Shown here piece after piece: positions 9,860-20,756 of a stretch of 42,889 nucleotides of DNA. This DNA is from a virus, in IMG/VR virus record IMGVR_UViG_3300046829_000089, positions 1 to 42,889 of that record, one strand, 5' to 3'. A program made the translations under genes and the position numbers. Position 1 is the stretch's first letter. Each line of letters starts with the position of its first letter. The notes beneath the pieces were generated by a model, which was not told the DNA's origin, did no database searches, and worked only from the letters and a program-made list of their open reading frames with translations.

Positions 9860-12493
9860 ATGGCAGCCTCACTGGTCTGGTCCTCGTTCAATGCGGGCGA
9901 ACTATCCCCGCTGATCGAGGGCCGGGTCGACCTGCCGCAGTACATGAAGGGCGGACGCATCTGCCTGAACATGATACCGACCGTGCAGGGCCCCGCGCTA
10001 CGCCGCGGCGGTAGCCGCTTCATCGGTCATTCCAATCAGGGCAGCTCATTCGACCCCAGCGTGATCCTGCGCTTTTCACGCAGTCAGACCGAATCCTACG
10101 TCCTGGAATTCACCGACAAGAAGCTGTATTTTTTCTTCAACGGTGGCCTGGTGTTGGATGCGTTCAACAACCCCTATTTCATCCCGACGCCGTACGCGCA
10201 GGCGGACCTGTTCAATGCCGATGGCTCCCCGGCAGTCGTTGGCGCCGAGTCGATCGACGTCATCTACCTGACGCATCCGAAATACCCGCCGCAGGTGCTG
10301 TCGTTTTTTGGCGCGACCAACTGGACGCTGTTCCCGTTCGCCAATGTCGACGGCCCGTGGAACGACGAGAATGCAGACCTGTTGTCCACGGTGCATGTCG
10401 CGGGAACGATCACGATCGGCAGCACGGTCATCATCACGGCGTCGAAAGACATTTTCCAGGCGGGCCATGTGGGCGCGCTGTTCCGCATCCATCAGCAGGA
10501 TCTGACGTCGATCAAGCCCTGGTCGCCCGGCATCAAGACGCCCGTGGTATCCGTTGGCGTGCAACGGCGTAGCGGCAACATCACCTACCAGTGCGAATCC
10601 GTCGATCCCGGCGTGGCGCCATTCAGCGCCGCGGGCCCGCCACTGTTTGTGCAGGCCGGCCCGAATACGCTGGTGCACACGGAAGGCAATGCGTGGGATG
10701 GTGACCAGTCTACCGTCATCGACCCCATCGGATCGACTTCGTGGTACTCGACCGGCATGGAGTGGTCGTATCAGGATTGTGGTTACGGGGTCGTGTTGAT
10801 CCAGTCATTTTCAACGACCAAGGTGGTGACGGGCGTGGTGCTGCGCCAGTTGCCGCAGGCGGTCGTCGGCATCCCCGGCGCGACCAATCGCTGGGAAATG
10901 GGGGCGTGGAGCACGGCGCAAGGTTTTCCGGCCATTTCCTGCTTCTTCCGCCAGCGCCTGACCTTCTTCGGGCGCAACCTGATGTGGGCGTCGGTGGTTG
11001 GCGACTTTACCAATTTCGCCGACAAGAGTTTCGGCGAGGTGTTGCCGGATTCGGCGATCACGGAACCGTTCCTGTCTGACCAGGTCAACGACGTCGCCTG
11101 TGTCTCACCGGCTGATACGCTGTTCGTCGGCACCAGCGGTGGCGAGTTCCTGGTGGCGCAGCAGTCGATTTCCGATCCACTGGGCCCCGGCAATATCCAG
11201 ATCCCGCAGCAGTCGCAGTACGGTTGCCGCGCCGTTCAGCCCATCCGCGTGCAGCAATATACGTTGTTCGTGACCAAGAACGGGCGCGTGCTGCGCGAGT
11301 CCACGTTCGCATTCAACGCCGGGCCGAACGGCTCCTACACATCGCAGGATGTTGTCGTTTTGTCCGAGCACATCACCAATGGCGGTATCATCGCCATGGC
11401 GTTCGCCAAGAATCCGTTCATGACCATTTTCATGGTACTCGGCAATGGCGCGCTCATTTCTTTCACCTACAGCCCCGAGCAGACGGTCAAATCTTGGGCG
11501 CGGCATGACCTGGGCAGCCATGGCAAAGCGGTAGCGATCTGCGTCGTGCCGAACGGCACCGGTGACTGGGATGACGTGTACGTCGAAGTCGCGCGCGCCA
11601 CGAACGACGGCACCGGCCATATCCAGTACAGCATCGAGCGCATCGAGCAGCCGTACTACAACCTGCCCGGCGACCGGCAGCAGAATGCGTTCTACGTCGA
11701 TTGCGGACTGACACTCAACAACACCATCAATGCCGACCTGACGCCCGACCCCGGCGCGCTGGTCGTGGGCTCGACTGGCGTATTGTTCCAGGTATCGACC
11801 GACGTGTTTGCCCCGACTGACGAGGGCCGTTTCATCCACTACGATTTCCTGGGCACGCAGGTGGGTCCGGATGGTCTGGAATACCCGCTGGGGCTCAAGG
11901 CTATTGCCAAGATCACGCAGTACATTTCCCCGCTGATCGTGGCGGCGGACATCGACGTGGCGTGGCCTAGCGTGGCACTGATCCCGGCCAACGCCTGGCG
12001 CATGACGGTGACGCGATTCGCCGGCAACCCTGCGTGGAACGGGTCGACGATTTCGATCCTGGCCGATGGCGCGTGCCAGCCGGATCAGTCCTACACCAAC
12101 CTGGACGACTTCGTGACGTTGCAGTTCCCGGCCAGTGTCGTGCAATGCGGAATCAAATCCCCCGCGGTGTTCCAGACCATGAAGCCCGAAGGTGGCGACC
12201 CCACCGGGTCCAACATGGGCAAGCTCAAACGCAACGTGCGCTACACCCTGCGCTTGCTGAATACGCTGGGTCCGCAAGTGGGGCGCGATCTGGACAGCAT
12301 GATCGAAATCGAACTGCGCGAACCCGATGTGCCCAACGACGACCCGCCGCCGATATTCACCGGCGACACGCCGCGCGACATGTTCAACGGCGAGTGGGAC
12401 CGTGAGGGGCGTGTCATGGTGACGGCGCCACAGCCGTTGCCGTTGACCTTGTGCGCGATTGCCACGTCCTTTGCCGAGGAGCCTGACGGCTGA
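9860..12493 (+). CDS. Tail tubular protein B / nozzle (T7 gp12-like)
   Basis: 877 residues. The start SLVWSSFNAGELSPLIEGRVDLPQ and GGSRFIGHSNQG are the classic opening of tail tubular protein B, the large beta-propeller nozzle at the end of the short tail. The region around SCFFRQRLTFFGR and WASVVGDFTNF is also typical. The preceding gene is tail tubular A and the following is the gp13 analogue. The stop overlaps the next ATG by one base (TGATG). Confidence 0.93.
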   Translation: MAASLVWSSFNAGELSPLIEGRVDLPQYMKGGRICLNMIPTVQGPALRRGGSRFIGHSNQGSSFDPSVILRFSRSQTESYVLEFTDKKLYFFFNGGLVLDAFNNPYFIPTPYAQADLFNADGSPAVVGAESIDVIYLTHPKYPPQVLSFFGATNWTLFPFANVDGPWNDENADLLSTVHVAGTITIGSTVIITASKDIFQAGHVGALFRIHQQDLTSIKPWSPGIKTPVVSVGVQRRSGNITYQCESVDPGVAPFSAAGPPLFVQAGPNTLVHTEGNAWDGDQSTVIDPIGSTSWYSTGMEWSYQDCGYGVVLIQSFSTTKVVTGVVLRQLPQAVVGIPGATNRWEMGAWSTAQGFPAISCFFRQRLTFFGRNLMWASVVGDFTNFADKSFGEVLPDSAITEPFLSDQVNDVACVSPADTLFVGTSGGEFLVAQQSISDPLGPGNIQIPQQSQYGCRAVQPIRVQQYTLFVTKNGRVLRESTFAFNAGPNGSYTSQDVVVLSEHITNGGIIAMAFAKNPFMTIFMVLGNGALISFTYSPEQTVKSWARHDLGSHGKAVAICVVPNGTGDWDDVYVEVARATNDGTGHIQYSIERIEQPYYNLPGDRQQNAFYVDCGLTLNNTINADLTPDPGALVVGSTGVLFQVSTDVFAPTDEGRFIHYDFLGTQVGPDGLEYPLGLKAIAKITQYISPLIVAADIDVAWPSVALIPANAWRMTVTRFAGNPAWNGSTISILADGACQPDQSYTNLDDFVTLQFPASVVQCGIKSPAVFQTMKPEGGDPTGSNMGKLKRNVRYTLRLLNTLGPQVGRDLDSMIEIELREPDVPNDDPPPIFTGDTPRDMFNGEWDREGRVMVTAPQPLPLTLCAIATSFAEEPDG

Positions 12494-12915
12494 TGGAAGT
12501 CAGAGAGTTTCATCCCTACGATCTGCAGTCCCTGAATGTGCCGCTATTCACGATGCGCCTGGGTGGTCCCTCGGCGACAGAGCATGCGATCGCGCTCAAG
12601 GAAGCCGGCGATTGCTTCACCGCGACCGTCAACGGCGACCCCATCGCCAGCATTGGCCTGATCCACTTCTGGCCGGGGCGCAAGTACGTGTGGGCGTATC
12701 TGGCGCCGGATTTCTGCAGGAACGCGCTGAGCCTGACGCGGGCTATCCATCGCTGGTTGAAGTACCATGGCGACGGGAGAATCGAAACCGCCATCGACCC
12801 CTTGGACGCCAAAGCCATCCGCTGGGCCGAGCGGTTCGGCTTCAAGTGCGAGGGGCTGATGGTGAAATATCTGGAAACCGGCCAGGATATGTACCTGTAC
12901 GCGCGAGTGAGGTAG
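12493..12915 (+). CDS. GNAT-like protein, T7 gp13 (internal virion protein A) analogue
   Basis: 140 residues. The C-terminal pattern KAIRWAERFGFKCEGLM followed by GQDMYLYARV is the end of a GNAT acyltransferase fold, while the acetyl-CoA-binding R/QxxGxG/A motif is not evident. T7 gp13 is about the same length, occupies the same place (between gp12 and gp14) and resembles acetyltransferases. I infer an assembly role rather than confirmed catalysis. Confidence 0.78.
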   Translation: MEVREFHPYDLQSLNVPLFTMRLGGPSATEHAIALKEAGDCFTATVNGDPIASIGLIHFWPGRKYVWAYLAPDFCRNALSLTRAIHRWLKYHGDGRIETAIDPLDAKAIRWAERFGFKCEGLMVKYLETGQDMYLYARVR

Positions 12916-12917
12916 GT

Positions 12918-13466
12918 ATGGCACCGATCGTCATCATGGGCGCAATGGCGGCGATTTCCGCCATCGGGGCTATTTCTGCAGGCAAGGCGCAATCGGCTTC
13001 CTACAAGTCGCAGCAGAGCGCGGCCAACTACAATGCGACCGTCAACCGCGACAACGCCATGTCAGCCGAGGCCGCGGGTAGCGCCAACGAATTGGCCATG
13101 CGCCGGCAGAACGATCAGATTCTTGGCAAGGAACGCGCGAGCGCGATCGAGGGTACGGGCAGCACGAGCGGCACAACGGCTGGCGTGCTTGCGCAGAACG
13201 GCGCCGATCTGGAACTGAACGCGCTCAATGAACGCTATCGTTCGACCATGCAAGGTCGTGGCTTGCTGGCAGCCGGGCAACTGGATGAGTTCCAGGCCAA
13301 TGTTGCTGGACAGAACGCAAGTGCGGCACGTAGCGCCAGCTACATCGGCGCAGCCAGCAGCGCGCTGAGTTCGTTCTCGAATTACAGTTCCTACCGCTAC
13401 CTGACGGCCGGTGGTACGAGTTCAAACGCATTTGCCGGCTCATCTGCTGGCGGTTGGGGCGGCTGA
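12918..13466 (+). CDS. Internal virion protein B (T7 gp14-like)
   Basis: 182 residues from ATG 12918 with GAGGTAGGT upstream. A hydrophobic N-terminus (VIMGAMAAISAIGAISAG) is followed by a long Ala/Gln/Asn-rich helical region (SYKSQQSAANYNATVNRDN) and a Gly/Ser-rich tail. This matches T7 gp14, which is ejected and forms the outer-membrane part of the DNA channel. Gene order supports it. TGATG overlap with the next gene. Confidence 0.82.
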   Translation: MAPIVIMGAMAAISAIGAISAGKAQSASYKSQQSAANYNATVNRDNAMSAEAAGSANELAMRRQNDQILGKERASAIEGTGSTSGTTAGVLAQNGADLELNALNERYRSTMQGRGLLAAGQLDEFQANVAGQNASAARSASYIGAASSALSSFSNYSSYRYLTAGGTSSNAFAGSSAGGWGG

Positions 13467-16093
13467 TGCCCCAGATCACCTACGATCCGACCACGGTCCC
13501 GGCATCGGGTTCCGACGCCGCGCCGAACGCGCAGGGCGCCAATTTCACGCCAGCCGTGGGTCAGGCGCTGGAAGGCCTGGGCCAGCAAGGTAGTCGCTTG
13601 GCCAGCGACATGGCGCGCATCGACTACCAGCGCAAGCAGGCGGATCAAGTCACGTCGCTGACCAAAAATCTAATGGATGGCGACGAGCAGTTCAACAAAA
13701 TCACGGAGCAGTTGAAGGCGACGTCGGGCCAACCTAATTCCGGAATTGCCGAGAATGGTGATGGGTACGTCAGCAAACTCAAGGAGCAATTTGAACCGTG
13801 GGCCAACAAACTCGTGGATCAGCAAACTGATCCGCGTGTCCAGCGCATTGCGATAGAACGCATCGGTGCTATGCACAATCGATTGTTCAACAATGCCGTA
13901 AATTGGGAAATGGCTACGGGACGCGCGTGGCGCATCAGCGGTATCGATGATGGCATCACTCACGACGCGACGGCGGTACAGCAAGACCCTTCTCAATACG
14001 ATGAACGGTTAAAGGGCCAACTCGACACGATCAATACGCTGTCTGGCGAACTTCATCCGGAAGATAAAATCGCTTTGCGCAAGCGGGCCCAGCAGCAGCT
14101 TGCCGAGGGCGCGAGCCTGGGGTTTGTGCAGGCGATGCCAAGCAAGGCCGCGGCGATCCTGACGGGCGAGCATCCGTTGCCGCCTGATAGCATTCAGGCA
14201 AAGATCGTCGCCGAGGCCAAATCGAAAGGCGTTGACCCAAACACGGCGCTTGCGCAGGCGCAGCTTGAATCAAGCATGCGGCCAGATGTCGGTAGCAATG
14301 TTCCGGGACATACCGCGCGCGGGTTGTTTGGGCAGATCGATTCATCGTGGGCGCAATACAGCGGAGGGGCGGATCGTGGCGATGTGGACGCGCAAGTTAA
14401 GTCGGGCATTGCTCAAATGGCCGATAGCCAAAAGGCGCTACGCCAAAGTCTCGGTCGCGACCCTACGCCGTACGACCAGCGATTGGCCCACTGGTTCGGT
14501 ATTGGAGCTGCTCCTGCAATTATTCGCGCACCCGATTCCCAACCATTCGGCGAGCTACTTACGAAGGCTGGATACCGCGAACCTTCCAAGGTGCTATCCC
14601 AAAACGGCCTCAACGCGCAATCCACCGTAGGCGACGTCAAGCACCTGGTCCAGGTCAACATGGACAAGGCGATGACCGCGACTGCCGGTTTCGCCAACGC
14701 GCCGGAACCGGACAAGGGTTCGACTACCGACAACATGCCGGCGTTCCTGGCGCAACTGACGCCACCAGGGCGCGCAGCGATGCTGTCGCATGCACAAACC
14801 CTGATGCGCAAGGATCGGTCGGTCGAGCGCACGCAGATCGAGGCGCAGTTCAATGACGCGAGCGCAGCGTGGGAACGCGGCGAAGGCGCCAAAGACCCGC
14901 CGAGTCTGGCGCAGTGGCAAAGCGCGTACGGGCCTCAGATCGGGCTCATGAAGTACCAGCATCAATCGCAGCTACAGGATTTCGGAGCGCAGTACGCGAA
15001 GGTCGCAACCGCCAATCCCGAGCAGCAGCAGGCGATCTACGAATCCAGCAAGGGCTCGACAAGCGCGACCGGCATGCAGTTGCACGACATGATCGGTCAG
15101 GCCATCAATCGCGTGAACACCGAGCGTGCTGCGGATCCGGTGGGATTCGATCAGGTCAAGGGGCTCAAGACCACGACGCCGCTGGATTTCAGCGATCCCA
15201 GCAAACTCGTGCCGCAACTGAGCGCGCGGTACGAACAGTCGGCGCAGATCGCGCAGCAGTTCGGTACGCCTTATGAACCGCTGTCGAAAGACGAAGCGCT
15301 CAAGTTTTCCAACTTTGTCGCCAATGCCAAGCCGTCGCAGGTGCAGGACTATCTGGCCTCGGCGAAGGTTGCAGCGAACGCGAACCCAGAACACTACATG
15401 GCCCTGCTCGGCCAGATCGCGCCGAACCATCCAGCGATAGCTCATGCGGGCGCGATCGCAGATCAGAATCCGCAAGCCGCGGCGATGGTGTTGCAGGGCG
15501 CGGCGATGCTCAAGCCGCAGGGCGAGAAAAAGGAAGTCAGTATCGTCATGCCACCAGAAGGAGCGTTCCGCAAGGCGTGGCAAGATACTGGGGCGACCGA
15601 GGCCTACGCCGGCAATCAGCGCGAATCCGACATGGCGATGCAGGCCGCGATGGCGTACTACACGGCCGCCTACCCCATCAGCCAGCGCAACGACAAGACG
15701 GTGGACGCTGACACGTGGAAGAAGGCCGTGGAAGCAACTACCGGTGGGGTGATCGAGTATGGCACCGGCAAGACTCTGGCGCCGTACGGCATGAAGCCGT
15801 CCGATTTCCCGGACGCGGTGTCGAAGGTGTGGCCAACGATCATGTCGCAGGCCGGGCTCGACCCGAAAGACCATTCGCCGCAGTCCTACACGATGACCGA
15901 CATCGGCCCCGGCCAGTACGCCGTCACCAGTGGCAGCGGCTACCTTCCTGGCAAGGACGGTCAGCCGGTCGTGTTCGATCTGCTCAAGGGCCAGCTCATG
16001 ACCGGAAACCAGGAGTTGCCGCCGCCGATTCCGAGGAAACCGGAGAAGGTCGCCACCGATTCTCTGCCGATGATGCGGGGACGCGGTCGATGA
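13466..16093 (+). CDS. Internal virion protein with lytic transglycosylase domain
   Basis: 875 residues. Residues about 250-360 form an SLT-type transglycosylase: ALAQAQLESSMRP with the probable catalytic Glu268, then ARGLFGQIDSSW, DAQVKSGIAQMAD and YDQRLAHWFG. T7 gp16 has the same enzyme at its N-terminus and opens the murein during DNA ejection; here it sits in the gp15 position. The rest is Ala/Gln-rich helical sequence, as in ejection proteins. Part of the gene (about 13660-14640) looks less GC-rich than its flanks, which may mark a recombined segment. Confidence 0.88.
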   Translation: MPQITYDPTTVPASGSDAAPNAQGANFTPAVGQALEGLGQQGSRLASDMARIDYQRKQADQVTSLTKNLMDGDEQFNKITEQLKATSGQPNSGIAENGDGYVSKLKEQFEPWANKLVDQQTDPRVQRIAIERIGAMHNRLFNNAVNWEMATGRAWRISGIDDGITHDATAVQQDPSQYDERLKGQLDTINTLSGELHPEDKIALRKRAQQQLAEGASLGFVQAMPSKAAAILTGEHPLPPDSIQAKIVAEAKSKGVDPNTALAQAQLESSMRPDVGSNVPGHTARGLFGQIDSSWAQYSGGADRGDVDAQVKSGIAQMADSQKALRQSLGRDPTPYDQRLAHWFGIGAAPAIIRAPDSQPFGELLTKAGYREPSKVLSQNGLNAQSTVGDVKHLVQVNMDKAMTATAGFANAPEPDKGSTTDNMPAFLAQLTPPGRAAMLSHAQTLMRKDRSVERTQIEAQFNDASAAWERGEGAKDPPSLAQWQSAYGPQIGLMKYQHQSQLQDFGAQYAKVATANPEQQQAIYESSKGSTSATGMQLHDMIGQAINRVNTERAADPVGFDQVKGLKTTTPLDFSDPSKLVPQLSARYEQSAQIAQQFGTPYEPLSKDEALKFSNFVANAKPSQVQDYLASAKVAANANPEHYMALLGQIAPNHPAIAHAGAIADQNPQAAAMVLQGAAMLKPQGEKKEVSIVMPPEGAFRKAWQDTGATEAYAGNQRESDMAMQAAMAYYTAAYPISQRNDKTVDADTWKKAVEATTGGVIEYGTGKTLAPYGMKPSDFPDAVSKVWPTIMSQAGLDPKDHSPQSYTMTDIGPGQYAVTSGSGYLPGKDGQPVVFDLLKGQLMTGNQELPPPIPRKPEKVATDSLPMMRGRGR

Positions 16094-18249
16094 GTTTCGG
16101 TCTGTTCCCGCAGGAGCAGAACAACGCGCTCGACGCAATCCAGCGCATGGGCCCGGCTGGCCCGCCGCAGCCGGGATTCTTTTCCGGCATCCCCACGGCG
16201 GTCGCTACCGGTGTTGGCGAAGGCGCGCTGAAAACGGCAGCGCCGCTGGTAGAGGAATCCGGCGTCGACATGCTGGGCGCGCTGTCGCCATCGCCTGATT
16301 TCTACACGGCACCGGCGCAGCCACCGGTGGAGCATACGCAAGAGGAAATCGATGCACATACCCGCCAAGCGGCGCAGGACGGTATCGAGCAATTCCGGCC
16401 AAACCCCAACATCACCGGCTTTGCTGGGAACATCCTGCATAGCGTGGCCAGCGTCGGCGTGCGTGCGGTAGCCGGCGCCGAGCTCGCAGGCCCCATCGGC
16501 GCGGCAGTAGTTGCTGGCGGCACCGAAGGCTACAACACCAGCGAAAGCATGCAACTGCGCGGTGTCGACAAAAACCTTGCCCACGCCTTGGGCGCCGCCG
16601 ATAGCCTCATGACCGGCGTCGGCGTGGGTACGCCGTTCCTGTCGGGCGTCGGGAAAACGCTGGCAACGCGCGCGGTTTCCGGCGCAACGATCAACGTCCT
16701 GTTCGGCGCCGCCGATCGCGCGGCCATGCACACGGCGCTTGCGGAGAACGGCTATGACGCGATGGCTAAGCAATATGCTGTGCTGGATGGCCAAGCGCTG
16801 GCCAGCGATGCCATCCTCGGCACCTTCTTTGGTGGCATTGGCCATTTCCACGCCGCCCCGTCCGTTGTTGACGCCGCGCACGTAGCGGCGGATGCCGCCC
16901 ATGTCGAAGGCGCCGCCAATGGCGTGCCCACCGACCCCATCAGCCGCAACAATCACGTCGACAATATGACGGCCGCCGCGCGCGCGCTGATGAACGACGA
17001 ACCAGTGGCGGACCTGAAACCTGTCGACACCATCCCCAATCCTGCGCAGGACGCGCTCAGAGCCGCGGCGGCTGATGCCCATATGCAAGCAGCGGCCGAG
17101 GCTGTCGCCGAGGCGGGCATGGGCGCGGAGACGCCTGCGTTCACGGGAATCGAACGTCGTTCCGACATGATCGAGTCCGCGCGCCTGGCAGAACTGACGA
17201 ACAAGCACAACACCGACAGTCTCACGCCGGCTGAGACAACAGAGTGGGCGACCCTGTTGAACCGGGACCGGCTGAGCACGACCGTCGCCGGGCGCCGGAT
17301 CCAGGGCGTCGGTAGTTACGCGGCCTACACGGAAATGCTGGCGCGCGGGGAAGGCAAGCCCGTCGTCGGGTTCGCCGATGCCGACATGCTGCATGCGACC
17401 AACGAAGCCCATGGCTACCCGGTGGGCGATGCCCTGATCCGCACGCTGGGCGAGACGCTGGCCCACTACTTCGGCGAAGGCAATGTATTCCGCCGCGCCA
17501 GCGATACTGGCGGCAGCGACGAGTTCATCACGCATGCCAACACCGAGGCCGAGCACACGGCAAACATGCAAAAGGCCCAGCAGTATCTGGAAAACCATAC
17601 GCTGCGGGCGTACGATAAAGTGACTGGGGAAATCATCGGCGAAAAGAAAGGGGCAGGATTCAGCCATGGCAAAGGAACCGACGAAGCAAGCGCCGCAGCG
17701 AACGCCAAACTCGACAAGCAACGTCGTGCAGATGCCGGGCTCCGGTCCGACCGTGGGACAGTGGCTGAGAAGCCTGGGGCCACGGGTGGGAAGGGTGGAA
17801 GTGCTCAAGCCGCCCGGCCCAAAACCGCAGTAGAGGCAATCAGCAAACTTACCCAAGCCCTCAAGAGACTGGTGGAAACCGATGGCAAAGACGCGGCTTC
17901 ACATGCAACTGCGCGTGCGATCATGGGACATACGACAGACGCCGGATGGTCTGGTATTGATCGCGCCGCTGTCGATCGCGCAGGCCCAGGAGCTGACAAA
18001 GCACTCGCGGCTGCGCTTGTTCACGAACAACCTGCCGGCGAAACCGGAAGCCTCGACCCCGCTACCAGAGAGTCCGTCGACCAGGCCCAATCCGTCATCG
18101 ACCGGCGCCCCGATACCGTCATCCCCGGTGCTGATGGAGTCCCGGTTGCCGGGCATGATGCGCTGAATCAGGCGCTGGAAGGGGTCGCAGCCGCCAAGCA
18201 AGAGGGCGTGCTGCATCAAATCGCTGCGGCGTGTTTTGGGAGGGGATGA
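16090..18249 (+). CDS. Internal virion protein with degenerate GGDEF (diguanylate cyclase-like) domain
   Basis: 719 residues from ATG 16090 (ATGA overlap). The N-terminal 300 residues are Gly/Ala-rich with hydrophobic stretches, as in ejection proteins. Residues about 395-520 align with a GGDEF domain: GFADADMLHATNEAHGYPVG at 427-446 lines up without gaps with the consensus D-x-D-x-F-K-x-I-N-D-x-x-G-H-x-x-G-D (D430, D432, N438, G442, G446, D447), and TGGSDEF at 473-479 replaces GG(D/E)EF with one inserted residue. GAGFSHGKGTDEASAAANAK fits the domain's last strand and helix. The inserted Ser makes normal cyclase activity uncertain. The Ala-rich C-terminus ends in AACFGRG. Two out-of-frame ORFs lie inside the 3' third. 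Confidence 0.8.
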   Translation: MSFGLFPQEQNNALDAIQRMGPAGPPQPGFFSGIPTAVATGVGEGALKTAAPLVEESGVDMLGALSPSPDFYTAPAQPPVEHTQEEIDAHTRQAAQDGIEQFRPNPNITGFAGNILHSVASVGVRAVAGAELAGPIGAAVVAGGTEGYNTSESMQLRGVDKNLAHALGAADSLMTGVGVGTPFLSGVGKTLATRAVSGATINVLFGAADRAAMHTALAENGYDAMAKQYAVLDGQALASDAILGTFFGGIGHFHAAPSVVDAAHVAADAAHVEGAANGVPTDPISRNNHVDNMTAAARALMNDEPVADLKPVDTIPNPAQDALRAAAADAHMQAAAEAVAEAGMGAETPAFTGIERRSDMIESARLAELTNKHNTDSLTPAETTEWATLLNRDRLSTTVAGRRIQGVGSYAAYTEMLARGEGKPVVGFADADMLHATNEAHGYPVGDALIRTLGETLAHYFGEGNVFRRASDTGGSDEFITHANTEAEHTANMQKAQQYLENHTLRAYDKVTGEIIGEKKGAGFSHGKGTDEASAAANAKLDKQRRADAGLRSDRGTVAEKPGATGGKGGSAQAARPKTAVEAISKLTQALKRLVETDGKDAASHATARAIMGHTTDAGWSGIDRAAVDRAGPGADKALAAALVHEQPAGETGSLDPATRESVDQAQSVIDRRPDTVIPGADGVPVAGHDALNQALEGVAAAKQEGVLHQIAAACFGRG
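17666..17833 (+). CDS. Possible overprinted small ORF inside the GGDEF virion gene (first)
   Basis: 55 codons in the +2 frame relative to the host gene: ATG 17666, TAG 17831-17833. An AGGA box lies eight bases upstream. The product starts MAKEPTKQAPQRTP and ends LKPPGPKPQ: basic, Pro-rich, no known domain. By my hand count about three quarters of its codons end in G or C, against about 60 percent in the host frame over the same bases, as expected if this frame is under coding selection. Unproven. Confidence 0.4.
   Translation: MAKEPTKQAPQRTPNSTSNVVQMPGSGPTVGQWLRSLGPRVGRVEVLKPPGPKPQ
17882..18166 (+). CDS. Possible overprinted small ORF inside the GGDEF virion gene (second)
   Basis: 94 codons in the same alternative frame, starting at ATG 17882 behind GGTGGA. 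It starts MAKTRLHMQLRVRSWDIRQT, continues with DGLVLIAPLS and ends Pro/Ser-rich (PSSTGAPIPSSP). My hand count gives 74 of 94 codons ending in G/C here and about 52 of 95 in the host frame, so this frame has the third-position signature of genes in this genome. No family recognised and no membrane segment. Could be a true nested gene or the relic of a frameshifted gene. Confidence 0.45.
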   Translation: MAKTRLHMQLRVRSWDIRQTPDGLVLIAPLSIAQAQELTKHSRLRLFTNNLPAKPEASTPLPESPSTRPNPSSTGAPIPSSPVLMESRLPGMMR

Positions 18250-20756
18250 TGCGTAGCGACTGCATCGATGCCGTTACCCGCGCCGCCGGTCGCGCCCTGA
18301 CTGCGGGGGAGCTGCGCGACATCGAGGGACGCCTGCTCAGCGCGGTGCGCCTGAACGCGCGCGAAGACCGCGCCACGATAGCCAGCCAATCCCCCGGCGA
18401 ACGCCTGCAGACGGCCGCAGAGCGCGTGGCCAAGGATCTGCAGGCCGAGGCCGAGCGCAACGCGCGCAACGTGGCGGCGCAGATCATTGCGCATGATCGT
18501 AACCAGCAGTTCATCGACACCTACGGACCCAAGGTCGGCGGCGCCATGAATGCGGTACGGCGCCTGCTCGCGGACAACCTCGACGGCAAGGGCAATGTGC
18601 GCAGTCTCGAACAGCGCCGCAATGGCATTGCGCGCTACTACAACGGCAAGATCGCGCCGGTGGTTGCCGCGACGCAGCAGTACCTTGGATTCTGGACGAA
18701 CAAGCAGGCCGTGCGCGATGTGCTGCGGGAACTGTATGGCGAGGACAGCAAGAACCCGGCAGCCAAGGCGGCAGCGAAAGCATGGTCTGACAATGTCGCC
18801 GAGCCATTGCGGCAGCAGTTCAATGCGGCCGGTGGCGCAATCCGACAACTGAAAAACTGGGCGGTACCGCAGAGCCATAGTCAGGTCAAGGCGGCGCGCG
18901 CAGGACTAGAAAAATGGACCGCTGACGTGTTGCCGCGGCTGGATCGCGAGGCCTACGTCAATGCTGACGGCAGTCTCATGAACGATGCGCAGGTCACGGA
19001 AGTGCTGCGGCAATCGTACGACTCGATTTCTACCGATGGCGCCAACCAGATCCAGCCCGGCCAGCATCAAGGCGCCGGTGCGATAAAGAATCGCGGCCAG
19101 GATGAGCGCGTCCTGCACTTCGCCAATGCCGATGCCTACATGGACTACCAGGCCAAGTACGGCGAGCGCAGCCTCTTGGAAACCATGACCGGCCACATCC
19201 AGGGCATGGCCAAGCAGATCGCGACCTTGGAGACATTCGGACCCAACGGCGAGGCAGGATTCCGGCAACTGCTAGATACCGCTTATCAGGCAGACGCTAC
19301 CGCTCGTCGGGAAAGTTTGGGCAAGCTCAAGGGACAACTGGCGACAACCGAAACCCAGTTCATGCTGTCGTCTGGCAAGATGGGTGCGATGGGCAACCCG
19401 AACCTGGCCCACAAGTTCGACATCGCAAAGACGCTCATGGTCTTGCCCAAGCTCGGCAGCGCGACGCTGAGCGCGATCACTGACGGCAGCAACATGCGCG
19501 CGGTGGCGCGTGCGTGGAATATCCCGGCGTTCAAGATGTGGCAGGCGAGCCTGAAAGCCTGGACGAGCGCCGACTTCCGCCAGACTATGCGCGCCAACGG
19601 TGTCGGTGTCGAAGCGGTCACGCACGCGATCAGCCGCTATGGCGAGGAAACCTTCGGCCACGGCATGCCGAGCGCAGTCGCCAATACCTTGTTCCGGGTA
19701 TCAGGCCTCAACTTCCTCGACAACGTCCGCCGCACCGGTGCCGGTGCCATGCTGATGGACAAGCTCGGTGGCCTTGTCTCAGCGCATGAGACGATGGAAT
19801 CGATGTCTGCACATGATCGGCAATTGCTCGAAAGTCGCGGGGTGATAAGTTCCACATGGAACATCTGGCGGCAGGCGGAATTGAGCGATGGCATGTTGAC
19901 GCCGGATGCGATCGGCCGTATCGATGGCCTGAGCAACGGCGCGCGCCGGGATGCGTTGCAGCATCTGGTCGGCACCGTCTTCATGGACGAGGGCACGGTC
20001 GTGCCGATGATGAAGGACTGGGCGCGGGGTTCGGTGCAGTCGGTACTGGGCGCGGCAAAGCGCGGTACGTGGGGCGGCGAGCTGGTCAACTCGATCCTGC
20101 AGTTCAAGTCGTTTCCCGTGGCGATGATGGCAAACCACTGGCAGCGGCTGCAGTCGATGCCGTCGCCGGCGGGCAAGATCCTGTACGCTGCGGAACTGAT
20201 CGCGTCGAGCACGATCCTGGGCGCGTTGTCGGTGCAGATGAAATCGCTCGCCAGCGGCAGCAACCCGCAGGACATGACGGACAAGAAGTTTGCCGCGCGT
20301 GCATGGATCCAGGGCGGTAGCACGGGGTTGCTGGGCGACATCATTGGCAACGCCTTGGTGTCGCCTTACAAGGAACACCTGACGGACATGCTGGGGCCGG
20401 TGGTATCCAGCGCCAGCGAGTTGTACGACCTCGGGCGCAGCGCCAAGGAGGCGGCGACCGATCCTAGCAAGCGCAATCAGTTCGGCGATGCCGCGGTGCG
20501 CTTTGCCAAGAACATGACGCCGTTTCAGAACCTGTGGTACACGAAGCAGGTCACGGACCATCTGATCTTTCAGCGTCTGCAGGACTACTACTCGCCGGGC
20601 TACAGCCAGCGCAGTCAGCAACGCGCACAAACCAATTTCGGTTCGACGCCATGGTGGAAGCCATCGACTGCCGCCGCGCCGAGCCAATTGCTGACCGGAA
20701 AAGGCGTAACATCCCCGACAGTGCCCAACCTGAATACCGCTACCGGAAACCGCTGA
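18246..20756 (+). CDS. Large internal virion / ejection protein
   Basis: 836 residues from ATG 18246, overlapping the previous stop; the adjacent ATG at 18249 is better spaced from GGGAGG and may be the true start. The protein is helical and Ala/Arg-rich. Segments such as LLETMTGHIQGMAKQIATLE, QFKSFPVAMMANHWQRL and FAKNMTPFQNLWYTK are of a type I associate with very large phage ejection and polyvalent proteins. By position it replaces T7 gp16. A hydrophobic stretch (AELIASSTILGALSVQM) could insert in the host membrane during DNA entry. No enzymatic motif recognised. Confidence 0.8.
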   Translation: MMRSDCIDAVTRAAGRALTAGELRDIEGRLLSAVRLNAREDRATIASQSPGERLQTAAERVAKDLQAEAERNARNVAAQIIAHDRNQQFIDTYGPKVGGAMNAVRRLLADNLDGKGNVRSLEQRRNGIARYYNGKIAPVVAATQQYLGFWTNKQAVRDVLRELYGEDSKNPAAKAAAKAWSDNVAEPLRQQFNAAGGAIRQLKNWAVPQSHSQVKAARAGLEKWTADVLPRLDREAYVNADGSLMNDAQVTEVLRQSYDSISTDGANQIQPGQHQGAGAIKNRGQDERVLHFANADAYMDYQAKYGERSLLETMTGHIQGMAKQIATLETFGPNGEAGFRQLLDTAYQADATARRESLGKLKGQLATTETQFMLSSGKMGAMGNPNLAHKFDIAKTLMVLPKLGSATLSAITDGSNMRAVARAWNIPAFKMWQASLKAWTSADFRQTMRANGVGVEAVTHAISRYGEETFGHGMPSAVANTLFRVSGLNFLDNVRRTGAGAMLMDKLGGLVSAHETMESMSAHDRQLLESRGVISSTWNIWRQAELSDGMLTPDAIGRIDGLSNGARRDALQHLVGTVFMDEGTVVPMMKDWARGSVQSVLGAAKRGTWGGELVNSILQFKSFPVAMMANHWQRLQSMPSPAGKILYAAELIASSTILGALSVQMKSLASGSNPQDMTDKKFAARAWIQGGSTGLLGDIIGNALVSPYKEHLTDMLGPVVSSASELYDLGRSAKEAATDPSKRNQFGDAAVRFAKNMTPFQNLWYTKQVTDHLIFQRLQDYYSPGYSQRSQQRAQTNFGSTPWWKPSTAAAPSQLLTGKGVTSPTVPNLNTATGNR

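Follow-up and report, generated by a model that had tools for sequence, protein, structure and literature searches.

The window analyzed here, the whole 42,889 nucleotides of the viral record IMGVR_UViG_3300046829_000089, carries on its plus strand a reading frame (16090..18249) whose 719-residue product, P0001, is by homology a relative of the epsilon15 gp16 ejection protein and holds, between its N-terminal part and its tail, a GGDEF-fold domain of a phage-specific branch. We favor, with some reserve, the reading that this cargo was once a cyclase and is now mainly a nucleotide-binding or fading domain.

The ejection protein and its exchangeable slot

The reading frame starts with an ATG at 16090 and is intact. 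In a profile search, residues 3-342 of P0001 matched phrog_1145 with an E-value of 3.5e-49, and this predicted helical N-terminal part (16096..17115, plus strand) is common to the ejection-protein family. A tblastn search of 50,697 phage records returned homologues of P0001 in 33, every match below 60% identity; epsilon15 gp16, phiV10 p19, Tyrion and Shamal were among them. The protein ends in a family tail (residues 660-719, 18067..18249, plus strand; last residues AACFGRG), which scored 46.1 bits against a profile made from the other 30 family representatives, compared with 11.6 bits for the top of 5000 shuffled sequences.

The gene immediately upstream (13454..16093, plus strand) encodes an epsilon15 gp15-type protein of the ejection cluster with a transglycosylase-like part; it matched the head protein profile phrog_992 (E 1.1e-62) and the transglycosylase profile phrog_4067 (E 3.1e-13), and reached an E-value of only 0.029 with Pfam SLT. 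The downstream gene (18231..20756, plus strand) encodes a gp17-type virion structural protein (phrog_684, E 7.7e-217). P0001 therefore lies between gp15-like and gp17-like genes as epsilon15 gp16 does, and the order in the window, GNAT protein, gp15-like protein, P0001, gp17-like protein and tail fibre, is that of epsilon15. The GNAT-like protein of this virion cluster (12493-12915) is the positional counterpart of epsilon15 gp13 and gave a weak match to phrog_308, an internal virion protein profile. The available text of a review places epsilon15 proteins of the gp16 cluster among ejection proteins (PMC8954989). From family homology, synteny and this listing we infer packaging and ejection of P0001, which is probably injected into the host at infection, judging by its homology to epsilon15 gp16. 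The initial annotation had called it a predicted ejected virion protein; the ejection type is upheld by the gp16 homology, and delivery into the host would follow from that homology only.

We clustered 176 complete frames having the N-terminal part at 70%, which gave 31 representatives of 466 to 1288 amino acids counted from the start of the match. The family tail with a cysteine near its end was present in all 31, and the middle was the variable part. Only two representatives, the window protein and L101, matched the GGDEF profile described below; the other 29, including Shamal and a Klebsiella prophage, did not. The profile score of L101 is inflated because L101 belongs to the profile, but Pfam, which is independent of it, recognized GGDEF in this protein with 40.8 bits (PF00990, E 2.4e-10), in addition to the gp16 N-terminal part and tail; its motif reads SGDEF. 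In nine family records, some of which may be fragments, the only Pfam GGDEF matches were those of the window and L101; the whole records of L020, epsilon15, Shamal and four other family members, again possibly fragments in some cases, had none.

A Pfam cargo scan covering 10 of the 31 representatives found other domains in the same slot: L023 (5752-9471) and L119 (5872-9462) carry ddrB-ParB plus a zeta toxin. Prophage sampling added one further cargo, a zeta toxin alone in L207. Pfam reported nothing above cut-off for L118, L120, L121, L126 and L125. By eye, L118 (5938-8340) resembled an ADP-ribosyltransferase and L126 (5956-7788) a PBECR nuclease, and these assignments were dropped, no Pfam match being above cut-off. 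Four proteins of about 1,250-1,300 amino acids (L120, L121, L123 and L164) have a common insert of about 900 amino acids in the slot, in which a HEILHH/HEFLHH-like motif was seen by eye. Among the 385 genomes in the class of G001, phrog_1145 was found in 1, and among the 369 in that of G002 in 2; these numbers include G001 and G002, both selected because they have it. This family comparison shows a slot between the N-terminal part and the tail of gp16-type proteins in which the predicted domains differ among phages. The intact-looking GGDEF domain of L101 in the same slot suggests that such phages could deliver exchangeable effector domains before expressing any of their genes. Neither the slot nor the L101 version had been noticed in the initial annotation.

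The GGDEF domain, its residues and its history

GGDEF was the sole domain that Pfam recognized in P0001, against the two or more unrelated activities by which polyvalent proteins are defined. The Pfam scores were low: PF00990 gave 20.1 bits (E 1.1e-5) on the window and 17.3 bits (E 0.0044) on the protein, under its curated cut-off of 23.8 bits, which is a threshold of the library and not a property of the fold. A profile built from 17 phage GGDEF domains, the window excluded, matched P0001 with 73.9 bits in a six-frame search of the window (E 3.9e-22), and this match spanned the whole profile (positions 5-161 of 163). The best of 5000 shuffled versions of P0001 scored 9.0 bits against the same profile, of which several members, for example L101, L102, L103 and L108, pass the Pfam cut-off. 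The degenerate GGDEF domain proposed initially is thus supported. It was located correctly, but it is larger than had been described, extending over about residues 396-556 (17275..17757, plus strand), because the C-terminal block GFSHGKG...LDKQRRADAGLRSDRG belongs to it too.

When the GGDEF stretch was compared with the 50,697 phage records by tblastn, 31 records had weak matches, 30 of them Pseudomonas and Bordetella phages. Three of the matched records were inspected; they are Yuavirus or Vojvodinavirus genomes with a stand-alone GGDEF-like protein. Alignments made from the stand-alone phage domains led to further phage GGDEFs in viral contigs, mostly within giant reading frames. In viral and genome contigs, single-protein scans revealed no close relative, whether the query was P0001 or its GGDEF part. 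In plasmids, tblastn of the domain gave no more than 10 matches, all weak and for the most part to ordinary GGDEF/EAL proteins, and the L101 domain gave none at an E-value of 1e-12.

An AlphaFold2 model of the domain, made from an 18-row alignment, had a mean pLDDT of 85.3. Foldseek returned 51 PDB matches with E-values of 0.001 or less, the best 50 of the 51 all being GGDEF or GGDEF-bearing chains, and VIA-align gave Z-scores of 15.6 to DgcB (6tts_B; rmsd 3.9, 147 residues aligned) and 15.5 to 3ign (rmsd 2.4, 139 aligned). The predicted fold has the GGDEF core in all three analyses, though the fold match partly depends on the sequence match since the alignment contained GGDEF relatives. The full-length model of P0001 (8 rows, L101 being the only other GGDEF row) had a mean pLDDT of 51 and was too poor for structure searching; the GGDEF stretch was its best-predicted part, with a strand and helix order identical to that in the domain model. 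Residues 586-657 (17845-18060), which lie between the GGDEF domain and the tail, had no recognized relative and were modeled at low confidence at full length. By profile match and predicted fold, the GGDEF-fold domain of P0001 is genuine, beyond a chance motif.

All residues listed in the initial annotation, the two Asp, the Asn, the G...GD and GGSDEF, are found in the 719-residue frame, and the relatives keep the D, N, GD and DEF positions. The sequence FADADML starts at residue 428, so that its ADADML contains Asp430 and Asp432; Asn438, Gly442 and Gly446-Asp447 follow, and GGSDEF occupies residues 474-479. In the segment DADMLHATNEAHGYPVGD (17377..17430, plus strand), the metal Asp430, together with Asp432, Asn438 and Gly446-Asp447, is kept, whereas Lys is replaced by His435 and the Asp of ND by Glu439. 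The long hairpin RRASDTGGSDEF (17491..17526, plus strand) keeps Asp477-Glu478-Phe479; its turn is longer than that of the relatives by 4-5 residues, and Ser476 takes the place of the invariant Gly that directly precedes DEF. The motif had been described as carrying an inserted Ser; it does deviate, but by these two changes rather than by one inserted residue, and the GG(D/E)EF signature is absent. The element RRIQGVGSYAAY replaces DxLTGLxNRR, LTG..NRR not being kept. The C-terminal block of the phage branch (17656..17757, plus strand) has Lys543, Arg552 and Arg555 at its invariant K, R and R-G columns.

At the columns that are nearly invariant among 14 relatives, the window copy keeps 15 of 20 residues, and it has the majority residue at 29 of 118 other columns (Fisher p 2.3e-5). 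The residues kept are the strand-1 Asp430, Asn438, Gly442, Gly446-Asp447, Asp477-Glu478, Lys543 and the G-R..R-G of the C-terminal block; those lost are the T of LTG, the Lys after DxDxL (His435), the Asp at Glu439, the Gly before DEF (Ser476) and one Pro. Under the same rule, L101 keeps 20 of 20, L113 19 of 21 and L104 20 of 22. We take the strand-1 metal Asp (Asp430) and the acidic pair of the signature (Asp477-Glu478) to have the roles that they have in PleD, and Asn438 and Asp447 presumably contact guanine as they do there; all of these residues are present. This pattern of kept and lost residues suggests a nucleotide site that is still somewhat constrained but in which catalysis has been damaged. 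Two ideas about the long turn were set aside. An RxxD (RASD) within it, considered as a product-inhibition site, has a spacing to GGSDEF that differs from that of such a site, and a tandem duplication as the source of the extra residues would have only a 7-of-8 match at 15-base spacing, noted by eye, in its favor and is not claimed. Viral contigs searched with a degenerate nucleotide pattern of the long hairpin gave 0 matches, and the turn has so far been seen in the window only. There is a single window-type sequence among those searched.

In a tree of 45 domains, a split supported at 97/97 parted the 21 phage rows from the 24 bacterial ones. The window domain and 17 further phage domains formed a set of 18 (98/87), within which its exact place is unsure, and L101 fell, with weak support, next to the giant protein L100 (84/75). 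The end branch of the window domain was 4.31, compared with 0.77 for L101 and a median of 0.91. In the tree of the N-terminal part, the window and L020 were sisters (100/97), with end branches of 0.40 for the window and 0.96 for L101. Comparison of 4.31 with 0.40 indicates that it is the GGDEF domain of the window, and not its ejection part, that has diverged fast. L020, the closest protein to the window by its N-terminal half (46% identity in 305 columns), has no GGDEF. A tree in which window and L101 were constrained together was not rejected (AU p 0.514). Both a single gain of the cargo followed by loss in L020 and separate gains in the window and L101 are compatible with the trees. On this phylogeny, the window domain is a very divergent member of a phage-specific branch that occurs chiefly in giant polyvalent proteins.

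What the cargo may do

We consider it fairly probable that P0001 is the gp16-type ejection protein of an epsilon15-like phage and that its phage-branch GGDEF cargo was formerly a cyclase and now mainly binds nucleotide or fades. The N-terminal helical part and the tail would probably act in packaging and in crossing the host envelope. The cargo would have entered the gp16 slot from the phage-specific branch, and the ancestral domain was probably a working diguanylate cyclase that was injected along with the DNA and raised a cyclic nucleotide at once; the domain of L101 may still act in this way. The window copy could now bind GTP or c-di-GMP and synthesize little if anything, because the catalytic turn and invariant residues have changed and the metal and guanine contacts remain, or it could be heading for loss. 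It is probably inactive as a diguanylate cyclase, and nucleotide binding by it is plausible from its residues. Among the roles suggested at first, synthase, sensor or decoy, synthesis of c-di-GMP thus becomes unlikely with the loss of invariant positions, and the better fit is a role in sensing or binding, or a vestigial one. For the proposed effects on biofilm, motility or CBASS, the analysis turned up evidence neither for nor against; the defense models of PADLOC, which could have supported a defense link directly, matched none of P0001, L101, L118 and L119.

A wider proposal, which we offer tentatively and hold to be rather doubtful, is that gp16 is a delivery platform with swappable cargo, that one such cargo is a synthase setting host c-di-GMP or another dinucleotide before phage genes are expressed, and that the window copy serves as a sensor or sponge. 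The available text of a P22 study reports that about 12 copies of gp16 are injected (PMC8402733). By our rough estimate from turnover rates, a dozen functional cyclases could bring c-di-GMP to a physiological level in minutes, which makes the cyclase version in L101 stoichiometrically not implausible.

The window domain might instead be a dead remnant, a mere spacer in a slot that tolerates anything. The rapid divergence confined to this copy, the complete lack of GGDEF in its sister L020 and the merely helical or low-complexity middle seen by eye in many relatives would all suit such a remnant, but active-site columns are retained far more than others, the reading frame is unbroken and the fold prediction is of high confidence, and we regard this explanation as unlikely.

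Quite improbable, in our judgment, is that the window domain is an active cyclic-nucleotide synthase, of which about a dozen injected copies would raise c-di-GMP or a related dinucleotide in the first minutes and alter the host's behavior or saturate a defense sensor. Some GGDEF proteins with altered motifs are active. The metal Asp, Asn, GD, DE, Lys and GxRxxRG block are kept, the slot of L101 holds a domain that looks intact, and the P22 copy number is in line with such a role; against this, the Gly before DEF has become Ser, Lys has become His, LTG..NRR is lost, the turn is longer and the GGDEF branch is very long. The company kept by the giant-protein domains bears on this as well. The inorganic pyrophosphatase PF18823 was found near the phage-type GGDEF, on either side, in 7 of 14 distinct giant proteins, several of them partial stretches (L233, L234, L235, L237, L239, L240 and L107), and, with near-duplicates counted, a profile made from these seven matched 11 of 28 giant frames. 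The adjacency fits a cyclase reaction that releases PPi, with 7/14 and 11/28 being counts that have no fair background, and the available text of Iyer et al. (2017, PMC5512222) gives PPi clearance as one option for this type of domain generally. The same profile had no match in L101 or in the window protein, and the missing pyrophosphatase weighs against synthesis by the window copy.

There is next to no chance that P0001 is a helical virion protein without kinship to GGDEF that resembles it by accident, as the sub-threshold Pfam score might suggest, given 73.9 bits to a window-free profile against 9.0 bits for the best of 5000 shuffles, a GGDEF fold at Z 15.6 and the placement inside the phage branch.

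Relation to known systems

The protein shares its N-terminal half, its C-terminal tail and the gene order gp12-GNAT-gp14-gp15-gp16-gp17-tail fibre/spike with epsilon15 gp16 and phiV10 p19 (phrog_1145, Uetakevirus). Unlike the window, epsilon15 and Shamal have no GGDEF anywhere in their whole records. Compared with the bacterial proteins PleD, DgcB, WspR and DosC, the domain has the same fold and the metal Asp, Asn, GD and DE positions, but it lacks the GG(D/E)EF and DxLTGLxNRR of bacterial diguanylate cyclases, with which it has 11-21% identity in structural alignments. The GGDEF-like proteins of YuA (gp44) and of Bordetella phages CN1 and MW2 (Yuavirus, Vojvodinavirus) belong to the same branch, with about 30% identity to the window domain; they are encoded by a separate gene of about 155 amino acids outside the virion block and have an SGDEF or AGDEF motif, whereas the window domain is fused.

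A further precedent is the GGDEF of phage polyvalent proteins, already reported by Iyer et al. (2017, PMC5512222). The GGDEF domains of the giant phage frames found here share the branch and the C-terminal block with that of the window, and the frames of L108 and L244 additionally carry LPD22, which takes its name from polyvalent proteins. Both the polyvalent proteins and the window ejection protein are probably packaged and injected, but the former are giants of 1,000-3,800 amino acids, whereas the window GGDEF stands alone in an ejection protein of 719. Neither epsilon15 and phiV10 nor ejection and pilot proteins turned up in a term search of that article, and its available text gives no assay for the polyvalent-protein GGDEFs. 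The partially covered literature that we searched did not contain a GGDEF in an epsilon15-type ejection protein, swapped cargoes in the slot or a worn copy.

The gp16 family is small, has laboratory phages as its type members and offers a simple test bed, with one protein and one slot in which an intact-looking version (L101), a worn version (the window) and cargo-free natural controls can be compared. If the cargo acts, nucleotide signaling would be brought by the virion itself. Taken together, GGDEF domains in injected phage proteins are already known from the available text of PMC5512222, and what is apparently new is a single GGDEF cargo in an ejection protein of the epsilon15 type.
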